From contig WSXZ01000035.1 of the NCBI GenBank assembly GCA_009773555.1, positions 1-64,000 on the forward strand: a DNA stretch of 64,000 bases, given 5' to 3'. Each line of letters starts with the position of its first letter. Positions within the stretch are counted from its first letter, which is position 1. A program made the translations under genes and the position numbers. This stretch comes from Methylocystaceae bacterium. Its GTDB lineage: Bacteria; Pseudomonadota; Alphaproteobacteria; Rhizobiales; Beijerinckiaceae. The notes beneath the pieces were generated by a model that did no database searches, had not been told where the DNA came from, and saw only the letters and a program-made list of their open reading frames with translations. Positions 24,263-57,733 of this stretch are shown piece after piece.

Positions 24263-24724
24263 ATGACGGACAACGCGCGATCGGCCGAGACCACAAACAT
24301 TATCCTATTGAGGGGCGCCGCCCTATGGATTCTCGTCGCGCTCGTTCTGGCGTGGTGTCTCGTGTCGCTCAAAATGGAAGCGCCGCTCATGCTGGCGATT
24401 TTCCCGGGGAAATTTTCACGCATCTTGCAGGCGCATATCGATTTTCTGCTGATGAGCGCGCTCTTGCTGGGCTTCTACGGAACGCGCATTCCCTTGGTCT
24501 GGCCCGTGCGCTGGGCGATGGTGATCGGCGCATTCACCAATTCGAGCCTGTTTATCTTGCAGGCGGCGTTTCCAATCCTCGACGGCCCGCCGGCCGAAGG
24601 ATGGGGCCCGGCTCTATTCGGCGTCTATCTTAAGGCGAGCATCGTGACGACGACGCTCGGCTTCGCCGGCGCTTGCCTCACCGTCCTGCGCATCAGTTTC
24701 CGTCCGAACCCTCGTGACCCATAG
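24263..24724 (+). CDS. four-helix membrane protein divergent from an AraC regulator
   Basis: A 153-residue integral membrane protein with about four hydrophobic helices (roughly residues 17-36, 55-76, 85-108, 120-143). The ATG at 24263 follows GAGGATG. Sequence such as LQAHIDFLLMSALLLGFYG and FTNSSLFILQAAFP is loosely like small four-helix isomerase-type membrane proteins (styrene-oxide isomerase/hydroxylaminobenzene mutase), but I would not assign that function. The divergent AraC regulator is a likely controller. Confidence 0.65.
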   Translation: MTDNARSAETTNIILLRGAALWILVALVLAWCLVSLKMEAPLMLAIFPGKFSRILQAHIDFLLMSALLLGFYGTRIPLVWPVRWAMVIGAFTNSSLFILQAAFPILDGPPAEGWGPALFGVYLKASIVTTTLGFAGACLTVLRISFRPNPRDP

Positions 24725-24751
24725 ATCCACTGACGTAGCTTCGCGGAACAT

Positions 24752-25693
24752 CTAGTCGAACAGGCTCGAGACGCTTTCCTCCCGCGCCGTCCGCGCGATC
24801 GCCTCGCCGATCAGATGGCCGATCGGAATGACGCGGATGTTGGGGGCGGATTCGACCGCGGCCGTCGCGCGGATCGTGTCGGTGACGACAAGCTGCTTCA
24901 GCTTTGAGTTGGCGATGCGCTCCGCCGCCGCGCCCGACAGCACGCCATGGGTAATGAAGGCGTAGACGGAGCCGGCGCCCGCCGCGAGCAGGGCTTCGGC
25001 GGCGTTGCACAGGGTTCCGCCCGAATCGACGATATCGTCGATGAGGATGCAATTGTGGCCGTTCACGTCGCCGATGATGTTCATGACCTCGGAGTCGCCG
25101 GCGCGCTCGCGGCGCTTGTCGACGATGGCGAGCGGCGCGTCGATGCGCTTCGCCAGCGCCCGCGCGCGCACCACGCCGCCGACGTCCGGCGACACGACCA
25201 TGACATTCTTGAGCTCAAGGTGGGACTTAATGTCCGCCACAATGACCGGCGCGGCGAAGAGATTGTCCGTTGGAATATCAAAGAAGCCCTGAACCTGGCC
25301 GGCGTGTAGATCCACGGTCAGAACGCGGTCCGCGCCCGCCCGCGTGATCAGATTGCTGACAAGCTTGGCCGAGATCGGCGTGCGGGGTCCCTGTTTGCGG
25401 TCCTGTCGGGCGTAGCCGAAATAGGGAATGACCGCCGTGATGCGACGCGCCGAGGCGCGGCGCAGCGCGTCGATCATGATCAGGAGCTCCATCAGGTGAT
25501 CGTTGGCCGGGGCGGATGTGGACTGGATCACGAACGTGTCCTGCCCGCGCACATTCTCCAGGATTTCCACCCAGATTTCCTGGTCGGCGAAGCGGCGAAC
25601 CTGGGCGCGACAGAGCTGAACGCCCAGGTGGGCGGCGATCGCCTCCGCCAGCGGCCTGTTGGAGTTGCCCGCCAGGAGTTTCATCGCCGCCAT
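24752..25693 (-). CDS. prs: ribose-phosphate pyrophosphokinase
   Basis: Prs makes PRPP from ribose 5-phosphate and ATP for nucleotide, histidine and tryptophan synthesis. The 313-residue length is standard. Conserved pieces include [16 protein letters not shown] at the start, [18 protein letters not shown], the [11 protein letters not shown] flexible loop, [13 protein letters not shown] and the PRPP-binding [13 protein letters not shown] motif near residue 220. An alternative ATG lies three codons in (25684). Upstream is about 230 bp shared with the divergent mnmA, holding both promoters. Confidence 0.96.
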
Positions 25694-35146: not shown

Positions 35147-36697
35147 ATGGTCGAGAAGCAAGATCGCCGCTCGTTTATCAAAGCGGCGGCGGCGACGAGC
35201 GCCATGGGCGCCGTCGGCGCGCCTCGCAGCGAGGCGGCGACGAGCGTCTCCAATCTTCGGCTCGGCGAAGCGCGGCCATTCTCCTTCGAGACGCTCAAGC
35301 AGACGGCGCAGCGCCTCATCAAACAGCCTTACCGCAAGCCGAATATCCCTGCCCCCGAGATCACCTCGCAGATCGACTACGAGAAGTGGGGACAGATCAC
35401 CTACAACACCGATCACGCGCTTTTCGCCGACACCAAGGAGCGCTTCCCCGTAGAGTTCTTCCACCTTGGGATGTTCTTCAAGAAGGCCGTGCGCATGAAT
35501 GTCGTGGAAAACGGCGAGGCGCGCGAGGTTCTTTACGATACGAGCTACTTCAATATGCCGGCGGATTCGATCGCCCGCCAATTGCCGCCCGGCGCCGGCT
35601 TCGCGGGATTTCGCATTCAGGAGGCCAAGGACGGCGCGCTCGACTGGAAGAAGAACGACTGGGTGGCGTTTCTCGGCGCGTCATATTTCCGCGCGATCGG
35701 CGAATTGCGGCAATATGGCATGTCGGCGCGCGGCGTCGCGCTCGATACCTGGCAAGCAGGATCGAACGAAGAATTCCCTGATTTCACTGAAATTTACATC
35801 GGCCCGGAGACCGCCGACGGCGTCGTCCTGCATGCGCTGCTTGAAGGCCCCTCGATCGTCGGCGCCTATCGCTTCCTGATGACGCGCGGCAAGGGCGTCG
35901 TCATGGACATCGACTGCTCGCTGGCGCCCCTCACCTCGATGTTCTGGTTCTCGGAGACCGCAAAGCCGACGGCCATCGATTGGCGGCCTGAAGTGCATGA
36001 TTCCGACGGGTTGAGCATGTGGACCGGCGCGGGCGAGCGCTTGTGGCGGCCATTGAACAATCCGAATCGGGTCATGGCGTCGGCGTTTGGCGACAAGAAT
36101 CCTAAGGGCTTCGGCCTGATGCAGCGCGACCGCAATTACGATCACTATCTCGACAACGTGTTCTACGATCGCCGCCCGAGCGTGTGGATCGAGCCCAAGG
36201 GCGATTGGGGCAAGGGCGCGATTCAACTCATCGAAATCCCGACGGATGACGAGATCCACGACAATATCGTCGTCATCTGGGCGCCCGAGAAGCCGGCCGT
36301 TCCCGGCGCCTCCTTCGAATATTCCTACCGGCTGCATTGGCTTGCGGACGAGCCCTATCCGACCAAGCTCGCGCGCTGCGTCGCGACGAGGCTCGGCAAC
36401 GGCGGCCAGCCCGGCAGGCCGCGGCCCAAGGGCGTGCGCAAATTCATGGTGGAGTTCCTGGGCGAGCCCCTCGCCAAGCTCCCCTTTGGGGTGAAGCCCG
36501 AACCGGTGTTATGGGCTTCGCGCGGAACATTCTCCTACGTGTTCACCGAAGCGGTTTTTGACAATGTGCCGGGCCATTGGCGGGCGCAATTCGACCTGAC
36601 CGTGGAAGGCTCTGAGCCTGTGGAGATGCGCCTGTTCCTCAAGAACGGCGATGAGGTGCTTTCGGAAAATTGGCTGTATCAATATCACCCGCTCTAA
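35147..36697 (+). CDS. opgD: periplasmic glucan biosynthesis protein OpgG/OpgD
   Basis: Works on osmoregulated periplasmic glucan backbones in the periplasm. I start at 35147 (MVEKQDRRSFIK), which gives a short Tat signal (DRRSFIKAAAATSAMGAV) and has AAGGAC upstream; an upstream ATG at 35066 adds a basic, non-conserved stretch. The Tat signal favours OpgD over Sec-exported OpgG. The MdoG domain follows, with FFHLGMFFKKAVRMNVV, FRAIGELRQYGMSARGVALD and the GLMQRDRNYDHYLD motif near residue 320. About 516 residues is the usual length. No glucosyltransferase opgH lies nearby. Confidence 0.9.
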   Translation: MVEKQDRRSFIKAAAATSAMGAVGAPRSEAATSVSNLRLGEARPFSFETLKQTAQRLIKQPYRKPNIPAPEITSQIDYEKWGQITYNTDHALFADTKERFPVEFFHLGMFFKKAVRMNVVENGEAREVLYDTSYFNMPADSIARQLPPGAGFAGFRIQEAKDGALDWKKNDWVAFLGASYFRAIGELRQYGMSARGVALDTWQAGSNEEFPDFTEIYIGPETADGVVLHALLEGPSIVGAYRFLMTRGKGVVMDIDCSLAPLTSMFWFSETAKPTAIDWRPEVHDSDGLSMWTGAGERLWRPLNNPNRVMASAFGDKNPKGFGLMQRDRNYDHYLDNVFYDRRPSVWIEPKGDWGKGAIQLIEIPTDDEIHDNIVVIWAPEKPAVPGASFEYSYRLHWLADEPYPTKLARCVATRLGNGGQPGRPRPKGVRKFMVEFLGEPLAKLPFGVKPEPVLWASRGTFSYVFTEAVFDNVPGHWRAQFDLTVEGSEPVEMRLFLKNGDEVLSENWLYQYHPL

Positions 36698-44044: not shown

Positions 44045-45748
44045 TTACGCGGGTTCGGTCTCACGGCCAGCTAACTCGAGAAGACGCGACACACCGACCG
44101 GCTCTTCGCTCAGCAGCGGCACGACGGCGTAGCGGCGCGCGTGGCTTGTTGCGACTCTCTCGACCTCGCGCAGTTCATTTTTGGCGCGCTGACGCAGCAA
44201 GGGAGAATGCCCAAGGCTCGATGCCCGCGCGGCGCAAATCTGCTTGCAGATTGGCCGCTTCAAGCACGGGCGTGGTTTCCGCCAAGGTGACGAGAAGGAC
44301 CTTCGTCCGCTTCGGGTCCTGTAGCTGCATCATCGGCGTGGTGTAATGCGCGCCCTTGGCGTCCAGCATCCGCGCGACCTCGCGATGATAAGCGCCCGTC
44401 GCATCCAGGAGCAGCAGCGTGTGGCCGGTCGGCGCGGTGTCCATGACGACGAACTTCTCGCCCGCTTCGCGGATGACGCGCGAGAACGCCTGAAAGACGG
44501 CGATTTCTTCCGTGCAAGGAGAGCGCAAATCCTCTTCGAGCAAAGCCCGTCCTTGCGCGTCGAGCGCCGCGCCTTTCGTTCTCAGCACCTCTTGCCGGTA
44601 GCGTTCGGTTTCGGCGTGCGGATCGATGCGGCTCACCGTCAGATTGTCGAGCGAACCATGCAGCGTTTCGGCGAGATGCGCGGCAGGGTCGGAGGTGGTG
44701 AGATGGACGGGCAGTCCGCGATGCGCCAACTCGACGGCGACCGCCGCCGCCAGCGTCGTCTTGCCAACGCCGCCCTTACCCATCAGCATGACGAGGCCAT
44801 GACCCTCGGCGGCGACGCCATCCACCAGTTCCGAAAGGCTGGGCGCGTGCAGTTCAACCGGTTCGCCGACCGCCGTTTCGATGTGCGGCGGCGTCGCAAC
44901 GAGGAGCTGACGCAACGCATCGAGTCCGACGAGATTGAACGGCTTCAAAGGCACATAGTCGCAGGGCAAGGCGCGCAGCGCATCGGGCGTCGCCGCCAAA
45001 GCAGCCTGCTCGCGCGCGTAAAGGGCGGCGGCGAGCGCATCGAGCGCCGCCTCTTCCTTTGGCAGCAGACCATTCACAACGAGGAATTGCTGATTGAGGC
45101 CGATCGCCGCCAGTTCCTCATGCGTGCGCGCGGCTTCGCGCAGCGCGGAGTTTTGCGCACGGGCGACGAGGATCAGGCGGGTGCGCTGACCATCGGCCAA
45201 AGCGGCGACCGCGGCGCTGTATTGGGCGCGCTGCTTTTCCAATCCGGCAAGCGGACCGAAGCAGGAGGCGTCGCCTTTCCCTGCCTCAAGGAAGCCGCTC
45301 CAGGCGACAGGGAGCTGCAGCAGGCGGATGGTGTGTCCGGTCGGCGCCGTATCGAAAATAATATGATCGTATGCCGATGTAATGGCGGCGTCCGTCAACA
45401 GCGCGGTGAATTCGTCGAAAGCGGCGATTTCCGTCGTGCAGGCTCCGGAAAGCTGCTCTTCGATGCCCTTCACCACGGATTCCGGCAGCTTGCCGCGCAC
45501 GGGGCCGACGATGCGGTCGCGATAGGCTTGCGCGGCGGCCTGCGGGTCGATTTCCAGCGCGAACAGGTTCGGCACGGCGTCAATCGCCGTGATTTTATCG
45601 CCGATGCCGACCCCAAACACCTGCCCGACAGCACGCGGCGTCCGGCTTCAGCGAACTCTATCGCCGTCGCGCAGGCAATCGAAGTTTTGCCGACGCCGCC
45701 TTTGCCCGTGAAGAAAAGGAATCGCGGAGCCTGTTCAAGAAACTTCAT
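44045..45748 (-). pseudogene. arsA: arsenical pump-driving ATPase ArsA, broken by two small deletions
   Basis: ArsA is the two-domain ATPase that energises the ArsB arsenite pump. The gene is spread over three frames. Frame 1 starts at 45748 with the first P-loop FTGKGGVGKTS and runs to GRRVL. Near 45628-45631 the expected LVSTDPASN switch I segment is missing (about 28 bp) and frame 2 continues at QVFGVGIGDKI, since the bases GGGCAGGTG of the VGQ words are still present. Frame 2 holds the FDTAPTGHT motif twice and the second P-loop MLMGKGGVGKTT. Near 44205-44210 the VINNSLAAA segment is lost and frame 3 carries the true C-terminus (SPLLRQRAKNELREV). Neither ATP site would be complete. No ArsB or Acr3 permease is in the window. 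Confidence 0.85.
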
Positions 45749-45757
45749 TTCGACCTT

Positions 45758-46114
45758 TCAGCAGCAGGAGGAGCCGCTGCAACAAGCGCCTGGTTTCGCG
45801 TCCTCGACATCTTTGACGCCCGCCCAGCGCGCAAGTTCCTCGCGGTTCGGATAGCGTCCGGCGAGCGCGATCTCGCCATCAACGAGGATCAGCGGCAGAG
45901 CTTCCTGCCCCGAGCGTTCCAGGAAACGCTTAACGGTCGCATTTTCCGCAAAGACCATGGGCTCCTGAGCGAGATTGAAGCGCTCGATGTGCGCGCCGTT
46001 CTGCTTCGCCCAATCAACGTCGGCAGAGAAGGTGACAAGCGCCTGATCGGTCTCGACGCCACAGACGCCGGTGCTGCAACACAGGGCGGGATCAAAAACT
46101 TGAATGGTCGTCAT
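45758..46114 (-). CDS. arsD: arsenite metallochaperone ArsD
   Basis: ArsD carries As(III) to ArsA and weakly represses ars operons. Starting at 46114 (MTTIQVFDPALCC) gives 118 residues, the family's usual size. The As(III)-binding triad Cys12, Cys13, Cys18 (LCCSTGVC) is intact. Additional vicinal pairs near the C-terminus (ACCSGSSCC) match longer ArsD proteins. The thioredoxin-like fold words LPLILVDGEIALAGRYP also fit. It lies directly before arsA on the minus strand. Confidence 0.93.
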   Translation of the reverse strand: MTTIQVFDPALCCSTGVCGVETDQALVTFSADVDWAKQNGAHIERFNLAQEPMVFAENATVKRFLERSGQEALPLILVDGEIALAGRYPNREELARWAGVKDVEDAKPGACCSGSSCC

Positions 46115-46124
46115 ATTCGTCCTT

Positions 46125-46513
46125 TCAGGATTGAGTTTGAGCGGCCCTGCCGATGACGACTTCGCCATCTTCCTTGGTGAATTCGCCAATGGCAGGATTT
46201 GGGAGGATGTCGAGCACGGCTTCCGAGGGACGGCACAGCCGTGCGCCTTTCGGCGTCACGACGATCGGACGATTGATGAGGATCGGATGTTCGAGCATGA
46301 AGCCGATCAATTCCTCTTCCGTCCACTTTGGATCGCCAAGTCCGAGCGCGTCATAGGGCGTGCCTTTCTGGCGCAGCAGCTCGCGCGCTGAAATGCCCAT
46401 GGCTTTGAGCAGAGATATTCGATGACGACCGGCTCTTCGCCGCTTTGGCAGATCATCGCCAGCGTGTTGCGCGACGTTCCGCAGGCGGGGTTGTGATAGA
46501 TGGTGATGGTCAT
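46125..46513 (-). pseudogene. arsC: glutaredoxin-dependent arsenate reductase ArsC, frameshifted
   Basis: This is the Grx-coupled ArsC family (ArsC/YffB fold), reducing arsenate to arsenite. The N-terminus MTITIYHNPACGTSRNTLAM with the catalytic CGTSR is intact up to VVIEYL. Near 46409-46413 the segment that normally reads KNPPTRxxLxxL is missing and the frame changes; AMGISARELLRQKGTPYDAL then resumes and runs to the normal end with RPIVVTPKGARLCRPSE. About 35-40 bp have gone. The start ATG follows the stop of an arsC(LMWP) remnant by 3 bp. Confidence 0.85.
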
Positions 46514-46516
46514 CGC

Positions 46517-46650
46517 TCAGGCGTCCATTTTGTGGCCATGGCTTGCACCTTCGAGTTCCCCGATTTCACGCAAACAACTCTCAAGCGCCAACATATCGAG
46601 GCGCTATCGCCGGTAAAGACAAAGAGGACGTTGTAAATGTGATCAGTCAT
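46517..46650 (-). pseudogene. gutted second copy of the thioredoxin/LMWP-type arsC
   Basis: A 134-bp remnant that joins the first ~15 codons of the intact LMWP arsC at 49906-50433 (MTDHIYNVLFVFTGDSAS against MTDQVYNVLFLCTGNTARS) to its last ~25 codons (DRLREIGELEGASHGHK-type end, same stop and same flank). About 390 bp of the centre are missing, and the catalytic Cys is Phe. The stop is followed by the arsC(Grx) ATG in the same TGAgcgATGACCATC arrangement seen after the intact copy. Confidence 0.85.
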
Positions 46651-46775
46651 CGATTTTTCCCTTTAGGCAAGAGGACACGGGGTCGGATAAGCGACGGCGC
46701 GCAGATATTTCTGAACGCCCACAGCAGCGCTCGTCGAGCAGCAAGATCAGCAGCTAGCAGCGTCTTCGTCTTGCG

Positions 46776-49253
46776 CTACGTCACGTCTCCGTCAGGCCCA
46801 GCATATTCCATCGATTTGAATGTGAGATGCCGCACCCCTTCCGGCGCCTCGGCAATTTTTCGAACCGCGCCCCATGTCTGTTTGAAGTTCGGTATGAGGA
46901 GCTCATTCACGCCGGGCGACACCACGTTGCCCTGCACGCCACTGGGATAGCCGAACAGCATGAACGTTTGCCTGCGCTTGGCAGTGGGCGTCGGATAGGC
47001 GATTGCTTGGGTCGAACCGTTATCGTTATAGACTTCGACGAGATCGCCGGCTTCGAGCTTCAACTCCGCCATGTCTTGCGGATTCATTTCGATGAAGGGG
47101 TAAGGCCAGCGATCCATGACAAAGTCATTCTGCTGATCGAGATAGGCGCTCTGCCAGATGTGATTGGTGCGGCCGCTATTGATGAGGAACGGCCATTTCT
47201 TACGTTCGGCCCGCTTATCTGCAAGCTGCAAGCCGCGCCATTTGGTTGGCATAAAGACGGCCTTGCCATCCTCGGTGTCGAATTTGCCGTCAGCGTAAAG
47301 GCGCTTCGACCCGATGATCTTGCCGTCCTCGAAAGCGACGGCGGGCTCTTGGAAGCCATTCGTGCCCATCCCGCGCAGCCGCTCATGTGTGACGAACCGT
47401 CCGCCCTTGTTTTGCTGATGGTACCCGTCCAAGAAGGCGTCTTCCTCGTTTTTCCAGTCGAACCCCTTGAATCGGTCGGCGTATTTACGCTTGCCCTTCT
47501 CACGCAGCACACGCTCCATATGCGTGGCGATGCGAGCGGCGATCAGGCAGTCCGGCAAGGCCTGGCCCGGCGGGTCCATGTAGCGCTCGGTGAGCCGCAT
47601 ACGCCGCTCGCCGTTCATCGATGTAAGATTCATTTCGCCCGACGTGGCCGCAGGCAGCCAGACGTGACAGGCCTGACCGATTTGGCTCGGTACGATGTCG
47701 ACGTCGACGGCGAAGAGGCCGCCCTTCTTGATCGCCGCCATGATCGTCTTCGCCATGCGCGCGCGATCGCCGTAAGGTGCAGACATCATCGCATCCTTCA
47801 CGATGTCCGTACGTTTCTTGTATGCCTGCTTGAACTTGAACGCATTCAACGTCGTCTTATAGTGATCACAGCCCCAGATGTGGTGCACGCCGCCCTTGCC
47901 CGCGATGAGAAGCTTGTCGACGTAAGGGGCTGGCCGCGGTCCCGGATAATCGGGCCGCGCATAGCCTTCCTGATGGCCGCCCATGCGCACGCAGCCGCCG
48001 CCCGGCCGGCCAATGTTTCCCGTCGCGAGCGCGAGATTCACGAGCGCGCCGTTGGTGCGGTAGTTGTCGTTGCCGAAGATCAAGCCTTTCTCATAGGCGA
48101 ACATCGCACGGCGTCGTGCGCCGCCGGCTTTAGGTTCGGCGATCCACGCCGCCGATCGGCGAATCTGGTCGACCGTCAGCCCTGTGATTTGCGCGGCTTC
48201 CTCGAGGCTCATTTTGTTGGCGGCGAGCGCCTCGTCGAAATTCTTGGTCGAGGCGGCGATGAACTCTTTATCGATCCAACCTTTTTGGGCGATGTAGGTG
48301 AACCAGGCGTTGAGCAGCGCGAGGTCCGTTCCTGAGTTGATCGCGAGATGCATCGCGCGGTCCTTGCCTGCCTCAACCTCGCAGGCGTTCGCCGTTACTG
48401 TTCGCCGTGGATCGACGATTATGATGCGCGCAGGATCGTCTGGCGCCGATCCGAATTCGGCTTTCTTTCTTTCCACGGTCGCGCCGCGCAGATTCGGAAG
48501 CCAATGATTGAGAAAATAATTGGTCTGCGTCTCGAGCGGGTTCGTGCCGACGGCGACAATCGTTTCCGCAAGCTCCGCGTCTTCATAACAATTATTAAGC
48601 TCATCCACGCCCATGTCGCGGCTCGCATGGACTTCGGAATTGTAGGCAGGGCGATTGTGAATGCGGATATTCTTGACCTTCAGCGCGCCGAAATACAATT
48701 TGCCGACGCCCCAGTTGTTTTCGTAGCCGCCGCCAGCGCCGCCGTGATCGTAAGCCGAGACGAACAGGCCGTCCTCGCCCATTTCACTGATGACGTCCAC
48801 GGTCACGCGGGCGACGAGATCGAGCGCATCGTCCCAGCTCGTCGGCTGCATCTGACCGTAACGCCATACCATCGGATCCGTTAGACGCTGCAACTGAGTA
48901 TTGCGCGCGCGCGAATAGCTCGTCTCCGCCATACGCGCGCCACGTATCGAGGCCAAACCAGAATTGACGACGCAATCCTCGTCGGGCTTGATGACGAGGT
49001 GCACGTCTTCGCCATTCTGGCGCACGATATTATACATCGATGGCGCGTACCACGCCGTAGCCTCGGCCTGCTGCTGCTTGGAGAGATTTGCGCCGAACTT
49101 GTTCTTGTCGGGCGCGGCGCCGCCTTGCTTGTTGATCGGCCATGTGTAGGCCTTGTAACCGCACCCGACGATGCAATAGTGGCAGACGACGTTGAACTCC
49201 TTTGCATCCCTTGGAACGATGGGGAGTCGATCGATCTGACGCTTGTAAGCCAT
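46776..49253 (-). CDS. aioA: arsenite oxidase large (molybdopterin) subunit AioA
   Basis: AioA oxidises arsenite to arsenate at a Mo-bis(pyranopterin) site. The 825-residue length is standard. The N-terminal 3Fe-4S motif is C24-HY-C27-IVG-C31. The DMSO-reductase-family body includes YDHGGAGGGYENNWGVGKLYF, IRIHNRPAYNSEVHASRDMG, the KGLIFGNDNYRTNGALVNLALATGNIGRPG region and a C-terminal cofactor domain with WPFLINSGRTNHIWQSAYLD. No Tat signal is present; AioA is co-exported with the Tat-targeted AioB. It follows aioB by 11 bp. No aioX, aioS or aioR regulator and no cytochrome c gene is beside it. Confidence 0.96.
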   Translation of the reverse strand: MAYKRQIDRLPIVPRDAKEFNVVCHYCIVGCGYKAYTWPINKQGGAAPDKNKFGANLSKQQQAEATAWYAPSMYNIVRQNGEDVHLVIKPDEDCVVNSGLASIRGARMAETSYSRARNTQLQRLTDPMVWRYGQMQPTSWDDALDLVARVTVDVISEMGEDGLFVSAYDHGGAGGGYENNWGVGKLYFGALKVKNIRIHNRPAYNSEVHASRDMGVDELNNCYEDAELAETIVAVGTNPLETQTNYFLNHWLPNLRGATVERKKAEFGSAPDDPARIIIVDPRRTVTANACEVEAGKDRAMHLAINSGTDLALLNAWFTYIAQKGWIDKEFIAASTKNFDEALAANKMSLEEAAQITGLTVDQIRRSAAWIAEPKAGGARRRAMFAYEKGLIFGNDNYRTNGALVNLALATGNIGRPGGGCVRMGGHQEGYARPDYPGPRPAPYVDKLLIAGKGGVHHIWGCDHYKTTLNAFKFKQAYKKRTDIVKDAMMSAPYGDRARMAKTIMAAIKKGGLFAVDVDIVPSQIGQACHVWLPAATSGEMNLTSMNGERRMRLTERYMDPPGQALPDCLIAARIATHMERVLREKGKRKYADRFKGFDWKNEEDAFLDGYHQQNKGGRFVTHERLRGMGTNGFQEPAVAFEDGKIIGSKRLYADGKFDTEDGKAVFMPTKWRGLQLADKRAERKKWPFLINSGRTNHIWQSAYLDQQNDFVMDRWPYPFIEMNPQDMAELKLEAGDLVEVYNDNGSTQAIAYPTPTAKRRQTFMLFGYPSGVQGNVVSPGVNELLIPNFKQTWGAVRKIAEAPEGVRHLTFKSMEYAGPDGDVT

Positions 49254-49264
49254 CGCCTTACCCC

Positions 49265-49780
49265 TCAGAGCACGTTGGACAGCCGGCCATAGAGAAGCTC
49301 ATCGACGCCTTCCGCATAGATGTCGCCCTTGGCGTCAAGGCGCAGGAAGTATTGCGGCAGATTTTGGGTCGCATGGCCCCAGATCTGCTGGCCGCCCGCC
49401 TCGCAATCGAAGCGTGAATAATGCGCCGGGCAGTTGAACGTGCGATCGCCAATGTTATAGCTGAGCGGAAACCCCCGGTGCGGGCAGATCGTAGAGAAAC
49501 CAACGATGTCGGCGTCGGGACCGACGCCATTTGGCGTGGACCTGCCGAGCTTGACCAAAACGCCCGGCGCGTCGTCGTCAGGATAAGCCACGCTCAACGG
49601 CTCGTTGACCTTGAGATCGCGAATATTCGCAAGCCGATTGGACGGGTATTCGACCCGGGCCTGCGCTTGGGCCGCTCGGGCGACGCCCGCGGAAGGAGCC
49701 GCCGCGGCGGCGCCGGCCACAGCGATGCTTTCAAGAAACCTGCGGCGACCGACGCGGAATGATATGTTCTGTCTCTTCAT
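49265..49780 (-). CDS. aioB: arsenite oxidase small (Rieske) subunit AioB
   Basis: AioB is the Rieske 2Fe-2S subunit that takes electrons from AioA and exports the complex to the periplasm. The Tat signal is visible (GRRRFLESIAVAGAAAAAPS, about residues 11-30). The cluster ligands are CPHRG and CPAHYSRFD (about residues 106 and 122). The extra Cys pair that forms a disulfide in some AioB proteins is absent, as reported for some alphaproteobacterial enzymes. The GHATQNLPQYFLRLDAKGDIYAEG end is typical. It is the first aio gene, upstream of aioA. Confidence 0.95.
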   Translation of the reverse strand: MKRQNISFRVGRRRFLESIAVAGAAAAAPSAGVARAAQAQARVEYPSNRLANIRDLKVNEPLSVAYPDDDAPGVLVKLGRSTPNGVGPDADIVGFSTICPHRGFPLSYNIGDRTFNCPAHYSRFDCEAGGQQIWGHATQNLPQYFLRLDAKGDIYAEGVDELLYGRLSNVL

Positions 49781-49905
49781 GCGCTTTTTGTTTGTGTAGA
49801 CCGCGACAGATCATCTGTACATGTCACGTCAGACAGCGCGCTCAGTGCAAGCCTAGCAAGGCTGGATTCGCGAACGGCCTGCAATCAACCGGCGATGGTC
49901 ATCGC

Positions 49906-50433
49906 TCAGGCGTCCGTTTTGTGGCCATGGCTTGCGCCTTCGAGTTCCCCGATTTCACGCAAACGATCCCTGAGCGCCAATTTATCGAGTCGCTTGATCG
50001 GCGTTGCGAGCAGGTAAGAAATCCGGAGCCTGAGGTAGCGGAATGCATCATTGAACGCTTTTAATTTTTCGATCTCTGTTCCCTCAACAGCCGCCGGATC
50101 CTCGACGCCCCAATGGGCGGTCATCGGCTGACCGGGCCAGATCGGACAGGCTTCGCCCGCGGCGTTGTCACAGACGGTGAAAACGAAATCCATTTTCGGC
50201 GCGTCAGGACCAGCGAATTCCTCCCAATTCTTCGATCGGAAACCTTCTGTCGGATAGCCATATTCCTCGAGCGTTTTGATTGCGTAAGGATTGACCAGGC
50301 CTTTTGGGTGGCTGCCCGCCGAGAATGCATTGAAACGGCCAGCGCCATCCCGGCGGAGGATGCTTTCCGCAATGATCGATCGCGCCGTGTTGCCGGTGCA
50401 GAGAAAGAGGACGTTGTAAACCTGGTCAGTCAT
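49906..50433 (-). CDS. arsC: arsenate reductase ArsC, thioredoxin/LMW-phosphatase type
   Basis: A 175-residue arsenate reductase of the low-molecular-weight phosphatase fold. The P-loop LCTGNTARS (residues 11-19) holds the catalytic Cys. FVFTVCDNAAGEACPIWPG (about 83-101) carries the resolving Cys pair and the catalytic Asp region. The C-terminal extension (KLALRDRLREIGEL) is usual for rhizobial members. It overlaps the arsI stop by 4 bp. Just past its stop, ATGACCATCGCC then a stop codon (49902 leftwards) is a 5-codon relic of the arsC(Grx) start that follows the other copy. Confidence 0.94.
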   Translation of the reverse strand: MTDQVYNVLFLCTGNTARSIIAESILRRDGAGRFNAFSAGSHPKGLVNPYAIKTLEEYGYPTEGFRSKNWEEFAGPDAPKMDFVFTVCDNAAGEACPIWPGQPMTAHWGVEDPAAVEGTEIEKLKAFNDAFRYLRLRISYLLATPIKRLDKLALRDRLREIGELEGASHGHKTDA

Positions 50434-50927
50434 TGGCTGGCTCCCGCTTCAGAACAACACGCGGCTTCAATCACAGGCGCTGGCTTCGCGCCGCAGCACG
50501 CGGAGGACTCCCCCTTAACGGCGCTCGCGCGAAATCCCGCAAGCGCTACGTCGCCGCCGTAAATCGTGCTTTCACCGGTCGTCAGGAAGGACTCCCATAA
50601 AAGCCCTTGCGGGTCGGAGGTCCACGCTTTCTCGGACTTTGCGTAGCAGCAGGTCGTTGCGCCTTCTTCCAACACAGGCCGTTCGGCCTGTTGCAGACGG
50701 CCATAGACTTCTTTCAGCTCTTCGGGAGTCTCGACCTCGATCCCGAGATGATCGACGCCCGCCTGTCCGCCCCGCGCCGAAATGGCGAAGTTCACGCGCG
50801 GATCGTCGAGCATCCATTTCGCATAATCGGGTTTGACGGCCGTCGGCTCCGCTTCAAAAAGCGCGCTGTAAAACCTAATCGACTCTGTAAGGTCATCCAC
50901 GGACACGTGCACGTGCAGGCGTTTCAT
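50430..50927 (-). CDS. arsI: ArsI/CadI-family metalloenzyme (C-As lyase type glyoxalase)
   Basis: A 165-residue vicinal-oxygen-chelate protein of the ArsI/CadI family. ArsI cleaves the C-As bond of trivalent methyl- or aryl-arsenicals using Fe(II) and O2. The N-terminal MKRLHVHVSVDDLTES, the metal His in VDHLGIEVETP (about residue 60), the vicinal Cys pair in TTCCYAKSEKAW (about 92-103) and the metal Glu in LLWESFLT match ArsI. A Cys-rich tail (ACCGAKP then AACCSEAG) adds further As(III) sites. It overlaps arsR and arsC, so it is in the same operon. C-As lyase activity is inferred. Confidence 0.88.
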   Translation of the reverse strand: MKRLHVHVSVDDLTESIRFYSALFEAEPTAVKPDYAKWMLDDPRVNFAISARGGQAGVDHLGIEVETPEELKEVYGRLQQAERPVLEEGATTCCYAKSEKAWTSDPQGLLWESFLTTGESTIYGGDVALAGFRASAVKGESSACCGAKPAPVIEAACCSEAGASQ

Positions 50928-51264
50928 GACGTTCCTCTGGTTGGCAAGTTGAAGGAGCAGCGGCCTCGCATGAGGCAGCAGCGCCTTGGCAGCAATTCTC
51001 GGTCATGTAGGCAAGCAGCGCGTTCATAACCGGATAGGCCGCCGAGTAGATCAGCGATCGGCTTTCGCGCCGGAAGGTCACAAGGTCCGCGTGTTTGAGC
51101 TGGCTCAGGTGGAAAGACAGCGTCGCCGGCGGGAGCGCGAGCCGCTCGCCGATTTGCCCCGCCGCAAGCCCCTTAGGTCCGGCTTGCATGAGCAGCCTGA
51201 AAATATCGAGCCGCGTCTCATGACCGAGCGCGACAAGGGCGGCTAGGGCTTCCTGCTTTTCCAT
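50893..51264 (-). CDS. arsR: ArsR-family transcriptional repressor
   Basis: A 123-residue winged-helix repressor. The HTH region reads LALPPATLSFHLSQLKHADLVTFRRESRSLIY (split over about residues 42-73). Candidate As(III) ligands are C-terminal: the ENCC pair and later single Cys residues (SC, STC), unlike the classical ELCVCDL motif, placing it among ArsR types with C-terminal sites. Its last 35 bp overlap arsI. Its start codon lies inside the arm of an inverted repeat, and the promoter suggests a leaderless transcript. Confidence 0.92.
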   Translation of the reverse strand: MEKQEALAALVALGHETRLDIFRLLMQAGPKGLAAGQIGERLALPPATLSFHLSQLKHADLVTFRRESRSLIYSAAYPVMNALLAYMTENCCQGAAASCEAAAPSTCQPEERHETPARARVRG

Positions 51265-51286
51265 ATTTCTAATATGATGGAAATAT
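51263..51286. promoter_or_regulatory. ArsR operator and promoter overlapping the arsR start codon
   Basis: A perfect inverted repeat ATATTTC-N10-GAAATAT whose inner end covers the arsR ATG (51264-51262). On the minus strand TTGACG (-35) is followed after 17 bp by ATATTA (-10), placing transcription start at or next to the ATG. The repressor site therefore covers the -10 and start. Binding by ArsR is inferred. Confidence 0.65.
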
Positions 51287-51454
51287 TGATCGCGTCAATA
51301 CCGTCGAGACGTCGATTCCCCGTTGCGCCAGTCGACAGAGTTCCGGCGCGTTAACGCGCCGTCGCACTGAGTCGAAAACGAAGGAAAAGTGTCGTATCGA
51401 GACGTTGAATGGAGCGTGCATGACGCGACCTACGCCGTTGAGACTAAGTCTCCG

Positions 51455-54825: not shown

Positions 54826-54988
54826 TGGTCCTTCACGAGTGTCTTAACCCTGGCATAGGCGAAATCGCATAAACCGCCAACTTTCCTCTCGCAAAAAAGT
54901 CAGTCGATCACAACTTGCCGAACGGGCAAAACGCTCGTAGCATTTGCGGTTACGGCGATTGATTTTTCTTTATTTTGAGGCGCTCATT

Positions 54989-57733
54989 ATGTCCAAGAAA
55001 ATCGTTCTTCTCGCGGATGGCACGGGAAATGGGCTGCTCGTCCAAGTTTCCAATATTTGCCGACTTTGGCAAGCGCTCGACACCTCCACGAATGGTCAAA
55101 TTGTTCTCTACATCCCGGGCGTGGGAACCCAGGGCTTCAAGCCGATCGCCATGCTCGACGGCGCGACGGGATTGGGCGTGCCGTCGAACGTGCGCAAGCT
55201 TTATCGTTTCTTGTGCGCCAACTGGGAGTTTGACGATGAAATCTACATGTTCGGCTTCAGCCGCGGCGCCTTTACGATCCGCACGCTGATCGATCTCATC
55301 AGGATCGAAGGGCTGTTGCCGAACGACGTCACGCGCGTTGAAATGCACCGCCTTTCGATGGCCGCATGGCGCTCCTATCGCAAACATGACGCACGCTGGG
55401 ATTGGTCGAAGCCGTGGAAAATTTCGCCAACCTTTCCCATTTTCCGCGCGTTCCGCGACGTGCTCCTGTTTGTCTGGCGCCGCGCTTGGGGACATCGCAG
55501 CTACGCGAGCGTTAAGGCGACAAGGCCCGGCGAGCGGAGCGGCGAGCAGGTCAAAATCAAATTTGTCGGCCTCTTCGATACTGTCGAAGCATATGGCGTT
55601 CCGGTCGAGGAGCTGCGCGCCGCGATCAACTGGGTCTGGCCCATTTCCTTTGGCGGCAACCACCGAGTTTCGGAGAAAGTCGAATGCATTCGCCATGCGC
55701 TGTCGCTGGACGATGAGCGAACGACTTTTCATCCAATTCGCATCGATCAAAAGTCCAACGCCCAATGTCCAGACCGCATCAAGGAATTTTGGTTCGCCGG
55801 GGTCCATTCGGATGTTGGCGGCGGCTATCCCGACTCCTCGCAGGCGCTTGTGCCATTTGTCTGGATTTTGGACGAGGCCGTTAAGGCGGGCCTTGTCTTG
55901 CGGAACGGAGAGATCGAAGAATTTCGCGCTCATTCCTCGCCATTTGGACCGGTACATGATTCAAGAGCGGGAATGGCTGTTCTCTATCGCTACCATCCGC
56001 GCGTGATCGCGCGAAGCGATGAAGAGGGCAATTCCTACGGTCCCACGCTCGTGCATCATTCGGTGATCGAGCGAATTGTCCACGGTTCGGACAATTACGC
56101 GCCCATTTCCCTGCCCGACGATATCCAGATATCGCTGCCCGACGGATCCGAATTCGAGGACACGCTCAACGCTGGTTTCCGACAAATCGCCGGACGGGAT
56201 GACGCGATCTCTTCATCGAGCGCGGCGTTGAACACACATCGCATGCGGCGCGCATGCGACGCGATCGAAAATCTGCAGAAGCCGAACCGAACCGACATTG
56301 ATCTGGCGCTCGACCTCGTTTGGCTGCGCCGCGTGAATTACTTCGCGACGATCACTCTGCTGGCGCTGTTGGTTCTGCTGCCCTGGCTGGGCGATTCTAT
56401 CGAGCGCTGTTTAAGATGGCTTGCGTCATTGATCGGCTCGTCGCGCGTAAACTCGGAAGTCGACGCCATCGGCGGCGGCGCGGCGAATTTCTTCCGCGGA
56501 ATTGTTGATTCGCTGCAAGCCGTGACCCCCAGCTATGTGGCGCCCTATTGGCAATCATTGCGTTCCCATCCGTTGATCGCCGGCGTGCTTATCGCCCTAT
56601 CAGCGATGCTGTTGTGGGGAGGCGCGAATCTGGGCGTGAAAATCAACGATCATGCTCGGCGCGCCTGGAGATCAAGATCCATCGCAGCCGGGCAAGGGGC
56701 TGGGCCGCGACCGGGCCCTCTCATGATGGTGGCGAGGAAGATGCGTCTCAGTCCGGCCGCCGCCGCGATTCATCGCGTCGCTTCCGGATATCTGCTGCCA
56801 ATCATCTGGGGCGTCGCCTTGGCGATCGCCGTGCTGCCGCCGTTGGCTGGCTTGGTCAGCCGCTGGATATTTGATTATCAAGTCGGCGCCGGCAAAGTCT
56901 GCTACGGAACCGACAATCGGGAAAAATGGCCCGCCCAGTCGCCCCTAAGGGCGAAAACGCCGCAGCTCCTTAGCGTCGGCGCGAACGAAACCCTGTCGAA
57001 GCGAGGCTGGTCGCGGGGCCGAGAGGAGGAAAACGGCTTCAGGACAAGCGACCCTTGCTGGGCGAGCGGCTTCCAGGTGGAGCGCGGCGTGGCATATCGT
57101 TTGTTCATAAACATCGATACGGCCGCGGGCGACCAGCCCTGGTTCGATCAGCTGATAATGACCGACGTTGGGGGCTTCGAGAGCGACAGCTTCGTTCGAA
57201 AATTGTTCTTGGCCTGGTTTCTGAGATGGCCCTCGGCGGGCTGGTTCCAACCAGTCGCCCGGATCGGCGAGCAAGGCGACGCTGAGTGGCCGCTCGCGTC
57301 GCTCGACAAGAGCGGGCCGATCGCAATGAACGGCGATAAGTGCACGCAGCTTCCCATCCGTTACGATCAGACGTCTGAACGGCAAGCGTTTTGCCATACC
57401 GCAAATGCCCCAAAGACATGCGCGCAGGATCGACTGGACCTTCCCTGGGACGCCCAATTGCCAAAGGACGAGCAAGAGGCCGCCAACGCCGCATGGGAGC
57501 GTAGAGTTTTCCATTCGGGAGAGAATGGCGCCGCCTGCATGTCAGCCTATCCCCGCAAGACCTTCGTTTCCGACTTCGTCGCGTCAAAATCGGGAGAGCT
57601 TTTCCTTTTCGTCAACGACGCCGTCGGATTTCCATTTAGCCGCCAGCCACAAACTCCATATCGAAACAATTTGGGAACCGCGACAATCACATTGCAGCGC
57701 GTGTCGCCCCCGCCAGACGCCGCCCCAGAGTGA
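54989..57733 (+). CDS. DUF2235 (Tle1-like alpha/beta hydrolase) multi-domain membrane protein
   Basis: A 914-residue protein starting MSKKIVLLADGTGN at 54989 with GAGG upstream. Residues 1-400 are a DUF2235 domain, the fold of T6SS phospholipase Tle1: VLLADGTGN, the nucleophile motif GFSRG (Ser91), VGLFDTVEAYG and FAGVHSDVGGGYPD with the catalytic Asp/His region. Hydrophobic segments follow at about residues 443-465, 533-552 and 600-625, then a C-terminal ~280-residue region with Cys/Trp-rich, probably extracytoplasmic sequence. No T6SS genes, VgrG, PAAR or immunity gene is nearby. It is probably an orphan membrane-bound lipase/esterase; the substrate is unknown. Confidence 0.78.
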   Translation: MSKKIVLLADGTGNGLLVQVSNICRLWQALDTSTNGQIVLYIPGVGTQGFKPIAMLDGATGLGVPSNVRKLYRFLCANWEFDDEIYMFGFSRGAFTIRTLIDLIRIEGLLPNDVTRVEMHRLSMAAWRSYRKHDARWDWSKPWKISPTFPIFRAFRDVLLFVWRRAWGHRSYASVKATRPGERSGEQVKIKFVGLFDTVEAYGVPVEELRAAINWVWPISFGGNHRVSEKVECIRHALSLDDERTTFHPIRIDQKSNAQCPDRIKEFWFAGVHSDVGGGYPDSSQALVPFVWILDEAVKAGLVLRNGEIEEFRAHSSPFGPVHDSRAGMAVLYRYHPRVIARSDEEGNSYGPTLVHHSVIERIVHGSDNYAPISLPDDIQISLPDGSEFEDTLNAGFRQIAGRDDAISSSSAALNTHRMRRACDAIENLQKPNRTDIDLALDLVWLRRVNYFATITLLALLVLLPWLGDSIERCLRWLASLIGSSRVNSEVDAIGGGAANFFRGIVDSLQAVTPSYVAPYWQSLRSHPLIAGVLIALSAMLLWGGANLGVKINDHARRAWRSRSIAAGQGAGPRPGPLMMVARKMRLSPAAAAIHRVASGYLLPIIWGVALAIAVLPPLAGLVSRWIFDYQVGAGKVCYGTDNREKWPAQSPLRAKTPQLLSVGANETLSKRGWSRGREEENGFRTSDPCWASGFQVERGVAYRLFINIDTAAGDQPWFDQLIMTDVGGFESDSFVRKLFLAWFLRWPSAGWFQPVARIGEQGDAEWPLASLDKSGPIAMNGDKCTQLPIRYDQTSERQAFCHTANAPKTCAQDRLDLPWDAQLPKDEQEAANAAWERRVFHSGENGAACMSAYPRKTFVSDFVASKSGELFLFVNDAVGFPFSRQPQTPYRNNLGTATITLQRVSPPPDAAPE

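Follow-up and report, generated by a model that had tools for sequence, protein, structure and literature searches.

Arsenite oxidase genes lodged between duplication scars in an ars operon of Methylocystis, and their probable exchange between species as a cassette

Arsenic islands that hold both aioBA, the genes for arsenite oxidase, and ars operons have been described; they bear signs of horizontal transfer, and some of them lack aioXSR (Li et al. 2013, PMC3834237); this account and the others cited below are represented by excerpts of their texts. The aioA gene is on record for Methylocystis sp. SC2 and for six groundwater genomes of Methylocystaceae (PMC6730927, PMC7716213), and a Methylocystis metagenome bin carries arsRCCB and arsRCB operons, in a text whose excerpt is without the word 'oxidase' (PMC6333641). 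A connection between ArsR-family proteins and aioBA is known from Agrobacterium tumefaciens 5A, where ArsR proteins affect aioB expression (PMC7965956), and from Thiomonas, where AioF, an ArsR/SmtB regulator of aioBA encoded together with these genes, binds DNA in the presence of arsenic (PMC7533571). Here we describe an aioBA pair that lies inside a single ars operon, within a 64,000-base window (bases 1-64000 of contig C29, which has 75,359 bases) from genome G000, an assembly of 4.0 Mb in 144 contigs whose same-genus relatives are Methylocystis. The locus resembles the islands of Li et al. in that aioBA lies near ars genes, signs of transfer are present and aioXSR is missing in some of them; however, in the excerpted account of those islands aioBA and ars form neighbouring operons (PMC3834237), whereas here aioBA stands within one run of ars genes and is flanked by the scars of a duplication.

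Reading leftwards from position 51264 on the minus strand, the order is arsR, arsI, arsC1, a relic of the start of arsC2, aioB, aioA, a remnant of a second arsC1, arsC2, arsD and arsA, where arsC1 denotes the LMWP-type and arsC2 the Grx-type arsenate reductase gene (Table 1). Gene order, coordinates and the uniform strand all agree with the original prediction, which had been made from the sequence alone. We consider it probable that an ars operon received aioBA, that the pair was later exchanged as a cassette and that its transcription now reads through from an ArsR-controlled promoter. Into a Methylocystis operon of the order arsR-arsI-arsC1-arsC2-arsD-arsA, aioBA would have inserted at the boundary of arsC1 and arsC2, most likely on a single occasion, and to judge from the scars this entry would have brought with it a second arsC1 copy and the start of an arsC2, although the order of these events is reconstructed. 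The unit formed by arsC1, aioBA and the arsC1 remnant may later have passed between species, entering resident ars operons through homologous recombination in which the arsC copies and the neighbouring ars genes served as arms; the breaks in divergence and the conflict in topology are observed, and from them we infer a direction and mechanism.

The scars are readable on both sides of aioBA. The window contains just two exact copies of the 15-mer TGAGCGATGACCATC (49894-49908 and 46505-46519), one on either side of the oxidase genes; with one mismatch allowed, shuffled sequences held a mean of 0.02 copies and none of 100 reached two. The arsC1 remnant matches the intact arsC1 at 36/42 nt at the gene start and at 92/104 nt at the gene end including the junction (E 5e-36), so that the predicted placement of aioBA between an intact and a gutted arsC1, with the same junction on both sides, is borne out by alignment. 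The two copies also have sequence in common that the outgroups lack, for example TGAGCGATG where G017a has TGAGGGTGACG, and positions that both share are absent from G017a, G114a and G017b. The duplicated segment covers approximately arsC1 and the beginning of arsC2. There was no significant sign that it continues into arsI (of 300 shuffles, 44 to 168 reached the lenient score and 75 to 176 the strict one), nor that the upstream relic runs beyond ~45 nt of arsC2 (69 and 137 of 300 shuffles). The five-codon relic that had been noticed in the window is present, yet it is a trimmed form: the relic spans ~36-45 nt in G204, G201 and G190 and is shorter in the window and in G221, which has the same short form and aligns with the window without gaps over 1663 bp. 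A duplication followed by trimming had been proposed, and the duplicate scars uphold the first part; trimming, supposed to have affected one side, affected both (arsC2 on one, arsC1 on the other), and we place the duplication at the entry of aioBA by inference. Where the arsC2 relic meets the gap before aioB, the sequences of G204, G201 and G190 are homologous (E 9e-54), and this join therefore looks like one event. The internal deletion of the second arsC1 is apparently common to window/G204 and G201/G223 (40 nt without gaps), but 23 of 1000 shuffles reach its score, which gives modest support to a deletion shared among the aio-bearing operons. When the gaps before aioB and after aioA were compared by blastn with the fetched loci in search of a donor, only genomes of the genus matched. 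The duplication may have arisen either by single-crossover integration of an arsC1-carrying molecule or by duplicative repair.

Within the genus, 39 genomes were searched for AioA, ArsI and the methane or ammonia monooxygenase family PF02461. Strong AioA matches were found in six (the window genome, G204, G201, G190, G223 and G200), most of the others giving weak matches to related molybdoenzymes; an AioB search adds G221, whose sequence ends inside aioB. Four genomes (G000, G204, G201 and G190) have the whole arrangement, with aioBA and both scars, so the relatives with the same order carry the same double scar and not two unrelated arsC genes; in G190 both arsC1 copies are only scraps. A lone 310-residue end of AioA on contig C5 of G200 (L163/L216), with no ars match in the surrounding 19 kb, is apparently a remnant of a lost cassette. 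ArsI is encoded in 22 of the 39 genomes, at 26 loci. Six loci without aio genes (in G017a, G114a, G213 and G211, and two in G200) have the order arsR-arsI-arsC1-arsC2-arsD-arsA, and the adjacency of the two arsC types that had been postulated as ancestral is thus seen there straight after arsI. These six loci have acr3 3' of arsA, in pieces in G114a, and at the second G200 locus arsR gives a match of only 34%. In G213 (Methylocystis sp. MJC1) the ars genes lie on plasmid NZ_CP107560.1, with the ArsI gene at 24620-25114; no plasmid record searched covers 80% of the operon within a single region. Other aio-less loci have a gutted arsC1 (G017b), lack arsC2 (G114b), lack arsC1 (G151, G177) or have arsC1 and acr3 without arsC2 (G089, G208). 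In G203, G215, G216, G205 and G227 the order is arsR-arsI, a scar left by deletion of arsC1, arsC2-arsD-arsA, with the TGAGCGATGACCATC junction, and in G203 and G215 this aio-less operon occupies the window's own locus, between dus and a glycosyltransferase gene. These five aio-less genomes (loci L217, L249, L250, L251 and L252) have one arsC1 deletion scar in common, although the operon adjoins dus in none of them but G203 and G215. The operon's chromosomal place differs between window/G204 and G201/G190.

Divergence between the window and G204 drops over the cassette. The two differ at 2.0% of positions over 46776-50433 versus 6.4% in the flanking ars genes, and at fourfold sites the contrast is 24/497 (4.8%) in aioBA versus 79/483 (16.4%) in arsR, arsI, arsD and arsA together (p 2.5e-9). 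The control pair G201-G190 is flat (86/458, 18.8%, versus 115/551, 20.9%; p 0.43), and therefore aioBA is not inherently slow. The best two-break tract for window and G204 is 46635-50203, with a log-likelihood gain of 62.6 (20 shuffles gave no more than 10.7), and it ends inside the arsC copies, at ~46635 in the arsC1 remnant and at ~50203 in the intact arsC1. Likewise, window and G221 differ by 0.9% over 49824-50493, by 8.8% outside this interval within the operon and by 9-15% around dus. In sequence adjoining the operon, G215 differs from the window by 5.2% and 5.6%, G204 by 7.2% and 6.6%, and G203 by 6.6% and 6.5%; G215 is hence the nearest of the three in the flanks, yet it is without aioBA at this locus. 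Trees of arsC2+arsA and of arsR+arsI intermix aio-bearing and aio-less operons, and approximately unbiased (AU) tests reject a single clade of aio-bearing operons (p-AU 5e-16 for arsC2+arsA, with G223 left out, and 3e-5 for arsR+arsI); a tree of dus, with its four rows, is uninformative. Breaks in divergence at the flanking repeats combined with a conflict in topology, the marks of a recombination cassette, were found for window-G204 and window-G221 and were not found for window-G190.

Several observations weigh against this account. Between window and G190 the fourfold divergence of aioBA (20.1%) is no lower than that of the flanks (21.0%), and recent exchange is therefore visible in some pairs only. 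The window-G201 pair is intermediate (11.7% versus 19.7%, p 8.6e-4), and its best tract, 44325-50411, is broader than the cassette. By our own estimate, breakpoints are uncertain by tens to ~100 bp. The window's arsI is closer to that of G204 (15% at fourfold sites) than to that of G215 (21%), and the arsR+arsI tree pairs the window with G204 and not with G215 (90/74). G223, which has aioBA, is divided between contigs, and no match to arsR, arsI or arsC1 turned up in the 12 kb retrieved on the upstream side of its aioB. Lastly, the aio-less relatives may either have lost aioBA or never had it.

An alternative is one insertion and vertical descent, with the aio-less relatives having lost the block by deletion and without any recent exchange. 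The apparent single origin of the upstream scar, the five aio-less genomes in which an arsC1 deletion scar accompanies the same TGAGCGATGACCATC junction, and the equal window-G190 divergence inside and outside are all in keeping with such a history, which we nevertheless regard as unlikely, since vertical descent alone does not predict the low window-G204 divergence of aioBA alongside a flat control, the tract ends or the AU results. LMWP-type arsC genes are common near aio in Alphaproteobacteria, and two arsC1 sequences could in principle have been acquired independently and be merely similar; an end piece 88% identical, the shared positions absent in G017a, G114a and G017b, and the identical junction contradict this and make it highly improbable. 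It is hardly more credible that the arrangement is an assembly chimera of the 144-contig draft: the window does have private gaps of 28-42 bp that its relatives lack, but the same order and scars recur in G204, G201 and G190, each on a single contig of 3.6-3.8 Mb, and the short relic is found independently in G221. Insertion into an ars operon followed by exchange of the cassette thus remains the reading we prefer.

The private gaps bear more directly on arsC2 and arsA. Compared with G204, arsC2 lacks 34 bp at ~46412 and arsA lacks 28 bp (~45630) and 38 bp (~44210), which breaks both frames. Among the window, G204, G203 and G215, these three ars gaps are private to the window, which has four private gaps of 28-42 bp in all (43347, 44210, 45630 and 46412), one of them outside ars; the same stretch of G204, G203 and G215 shows zero private deletions of at least 10 bp. 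Open copies of arsC2 and arsA exist in G204 and G201, an open arsA in G017a, and full-length arsA matches in G190, G203 and G215. It is possible that the window's breaks in arsC2 and arsA are assembly errors, and decay of the two genes after the entry of aio was considered and not kept, as four private gaps with one outside ars fit assembly loss equally well. The union of arsenite oxidation, arsenate reduction and organoarsenical demethylation in one block, as first proposed, accordingly stands for arsC1, arsI and aioBA, whereas arsC2 and arsA are broken as assembled. Against G204 alone, the aligned window shows nine gaps and one insertion, each 28 bp or longer, changes that may lie in either genome; the gap at 35925 falls in an MdoG gene whose window copy is full-length, and this change is therefore more likely to lie in G204.

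With regard to the origin of aioBA, an AioA tree of 84 rows (80 loci and four rows from the genus, built by a quick method) groups the four Methylocystis AioA proteins with those of Bradyrhizobium loci L005, L006, L007, L009 and L010 and of a metagenome-assembled genome, L004 (SH-aLRT 99). No aioX, aioS or aioR was found in these six loci, nor was AioX found in the whole genome of L004, the one genome of the six searched. All six have a divergent arsR before aioB, and the arsR-aioB gap contains a palindrome around TGTCGAGACGTCTCGACA (recognised by eye in L006) that is a candidate bidirectional ArsR operator. Outside the genus, AioX was found in 60 of the 80 loci, some of which are cut by contig ends, and within it in none of six genomes (G000, G204, G201, G190, G223, G200), with positive controls in G228, the query's own genome, and G230. 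Methylocystis is not alone in lacking AioX, since G231 gave no match and G229 only a weak one, a point that tells against reading much into the absence here. The Methylocystis aioBA genes probably derive from, or share a common ancestor with, a Bradyrhizobium-type branch that was already without AioXSR. Plasmid 2 of Nitrobacter hamburgensis X14 has the same layout as the Bradyrhizobium loci, with an arsR-family gene adjoining aioB and no AioXSR seen; its AioA, which stands outside the AioA tree, shows 80.3% identity. In these Nitrobacteraceae arsR is divergent, whereas in Methylocystis the arsR belonging to the operon is found upstream in the same orientation, and the Bradyrhizobium-type palindrome was not found in the Methylocystis gap before aioB. 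An uncultured alphaproteobacterium has arsR-arsC-acr3-aioB-aioA, a further frame and then arsA on one strand (L080, 7144-15708), the only one of the 80 aio loci scanned in which the 600 nt upstream of aioB reach an ars gene on the same strand. This locus is far from Methylocystis on the AioA tree, which suggests at least two separate entries of aioBA into ars operons.

How aioBA would be controlled is suggested by the head of the operon, where arsR comes first, the genes share one strand and an operator-like inverted repeat precedes arsR. A 29-nt stretch at this repeat is identical in G017a, and the sole sigma-70-like match in 49700-51420, at 51271-51298, overlaps it. Most likely, judging from this layout, aioBA is transcribed by read-through from an ArsR-controlled promoter before arsR. 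In A. tumefaciens 5A, by comparison, AioXSR governs aioBA and ArsR has a partial, activating effect according to the excerpted text (PMC7965956), whereas the Methylocystis operon is headed by arsR and lacks AioX; Thiomonas AioF shares the ArsR-family link to aioBA, the difference being that here the ars repressor gene itself heads the operon (PMC7533571). Two points tell against read-through: one promoter-like match is weak when 0.5 are expected in shuffles, and the 125-nt gap ahead of aioB may hold a promoter of its own. Control by such an internal promoter or by another regulator such as PhoB, which would make the placement in an ars operon incidental, strikes us as doubtful. PhoBR control has been reported for the AioXSR-less oxidiser Halomonas HAL1 (PMC4563254) and the gap holds a 13-nt palindrome, but it contains no sigma-70-like match and the palindrome is degraded in G190. 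We lean slightly towards the broader proposal that the repeat-flanked aioBA of Methylocystis is an allelic cassette swapping in and out of the arsC1-arsC2 junction of resident operons by homologous recombination, trading its dedicated AioXSR control, which the nearest Bradyrhizobium-type loci had already lost or never had, for an ArsR switch.

Table 1. Features of the ars-aio locus, in positions of the window
Feature	Position	Strand	Assignment and basis
Inverted repeat ATATTTC-N10-GAAATAT over arsR start codon	51263-51286	-	candidate ArsR operator
arsR	50893-51264	-	ArsR/SmtB-family repressor; NF033788 62.1 bits (cut-off 55); PF12840, PF01022
arsI	50430-50927	-	ArsI/CadI-family VOC metalloenzyme; NF041414 130.5 bits (cut-off 116)
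arsC1, intact	49906-50433	-	LMWP-type arsenate reductase; PF01451 60.8 bits
Relic of arsC2 start (5 codons)	49885-49902	-	second junction copy
aioB	49265-49780	-	arsenite oxidase Rieske subunit; TIGR02694 198.5 bits (cut-off 95.65); PF00355
aioA	46776-49253	-	arsenite oxidase molybdopterin subunit; TIGR02693 1256.8 bits (cut-off 359.05)
Remnant of second arsC1	46517-46650	-	42 nt of gene start and 89 nt of gene end
arsC2, frame-broken	46125-46513	-	Grx-type arsenate reductase; intact G201 copy passes TIGR00014
arsD	45758-46114	-	metallochaperone; NF033727 137.3 bits (cut-off 90)
arsA, frame-broken	44045-45748	-	pump-driving ATPase; intact G201 copy passes TIGR04291

The identities of the encoded proteins rest on family profiles and structural matches. 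Both AioBA subunits pass the curated family cut-offs, the best Protein Data Bank (PDB) chain for AioA is 4aay_A, and AioB has an RR-type signal (by eye); by family, AioBA is predicted to be a periplasmic arsenite oxidase converting As(III) to As(V). The arsI product scores above its family cut-off and has the vicinal cysteines, which align with the pair in PDB chain 5d4f_A (E 3.5e-20), and it is likely an organoarsenical C-As lyase. ArsC1 exceeds the Pfam gathering score of PF01451 (LMWPc) and falls below the cut-off of the NCBIfam thioredoxin-type arsenate reductase TIGR02691 (70.7 bits versus 174.3). A profile search located acr3 at a separate locus of the window genome, on contig C21. From these families, cytoplasmic As(III) would lift ArsR, and a single transcript would yield a periplasmic oxidase, a cytoplasmic arsenate reductase and an organoarsenical lyase, with efflux presumably by the Acr3 encoded on C21.

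Elsewhere in the window, 54944-57733 encodes a 929-aa protein with a type VI secretion Tle1-like phospholipase domain (PF09994); the alignment of the window breaks there against G204 and against the dus regions of G216, G205, G201, G190 and G221, and G203 aligns throughout. PF02461 gave no match in the window genome and is present in 31 of the 39 genus genomes; short-read drafts often lose pmo operons, and we therefore draw no conclusion from the missing match. In the near-identical stretches L119 (G151:C14) and L120 (G177:C1), a PF02461 gene is found ~2.7 kb away from the ars operon, on its arsA side.

In the open-licence literature, searched by titles and the starts of abstracts, we found no account of aioBA inside a Methylocystis ars operon or of exchange of such a cassette, and the excerpted reports of Methylocystaceae aioA, unlike the present analysis, come without operon context, regulator, scar or exchange (PMC6730927, PMC7716213). 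The presence of aioA in Methylocystis was already known, and the ars-operon architecture and the proposed exchange seem new relative to the literature found. One orthologous ars locus with and without aioBA, its scars still readable, offers a rare view of an enzyme of energy metabolism or detoxification being wired into a resistance operon. It also suggests how aioBA may be controlled without AioXSR, which the excerpted text of Li et al. 2013 calls unknown (PMC3834237), and it bears on methanotrophs in arsenic-bearing groundwater, where aioA of Methylocystaceae has been reported and, by the excerpt of that account, its function not explored in detail (PMC6730927).

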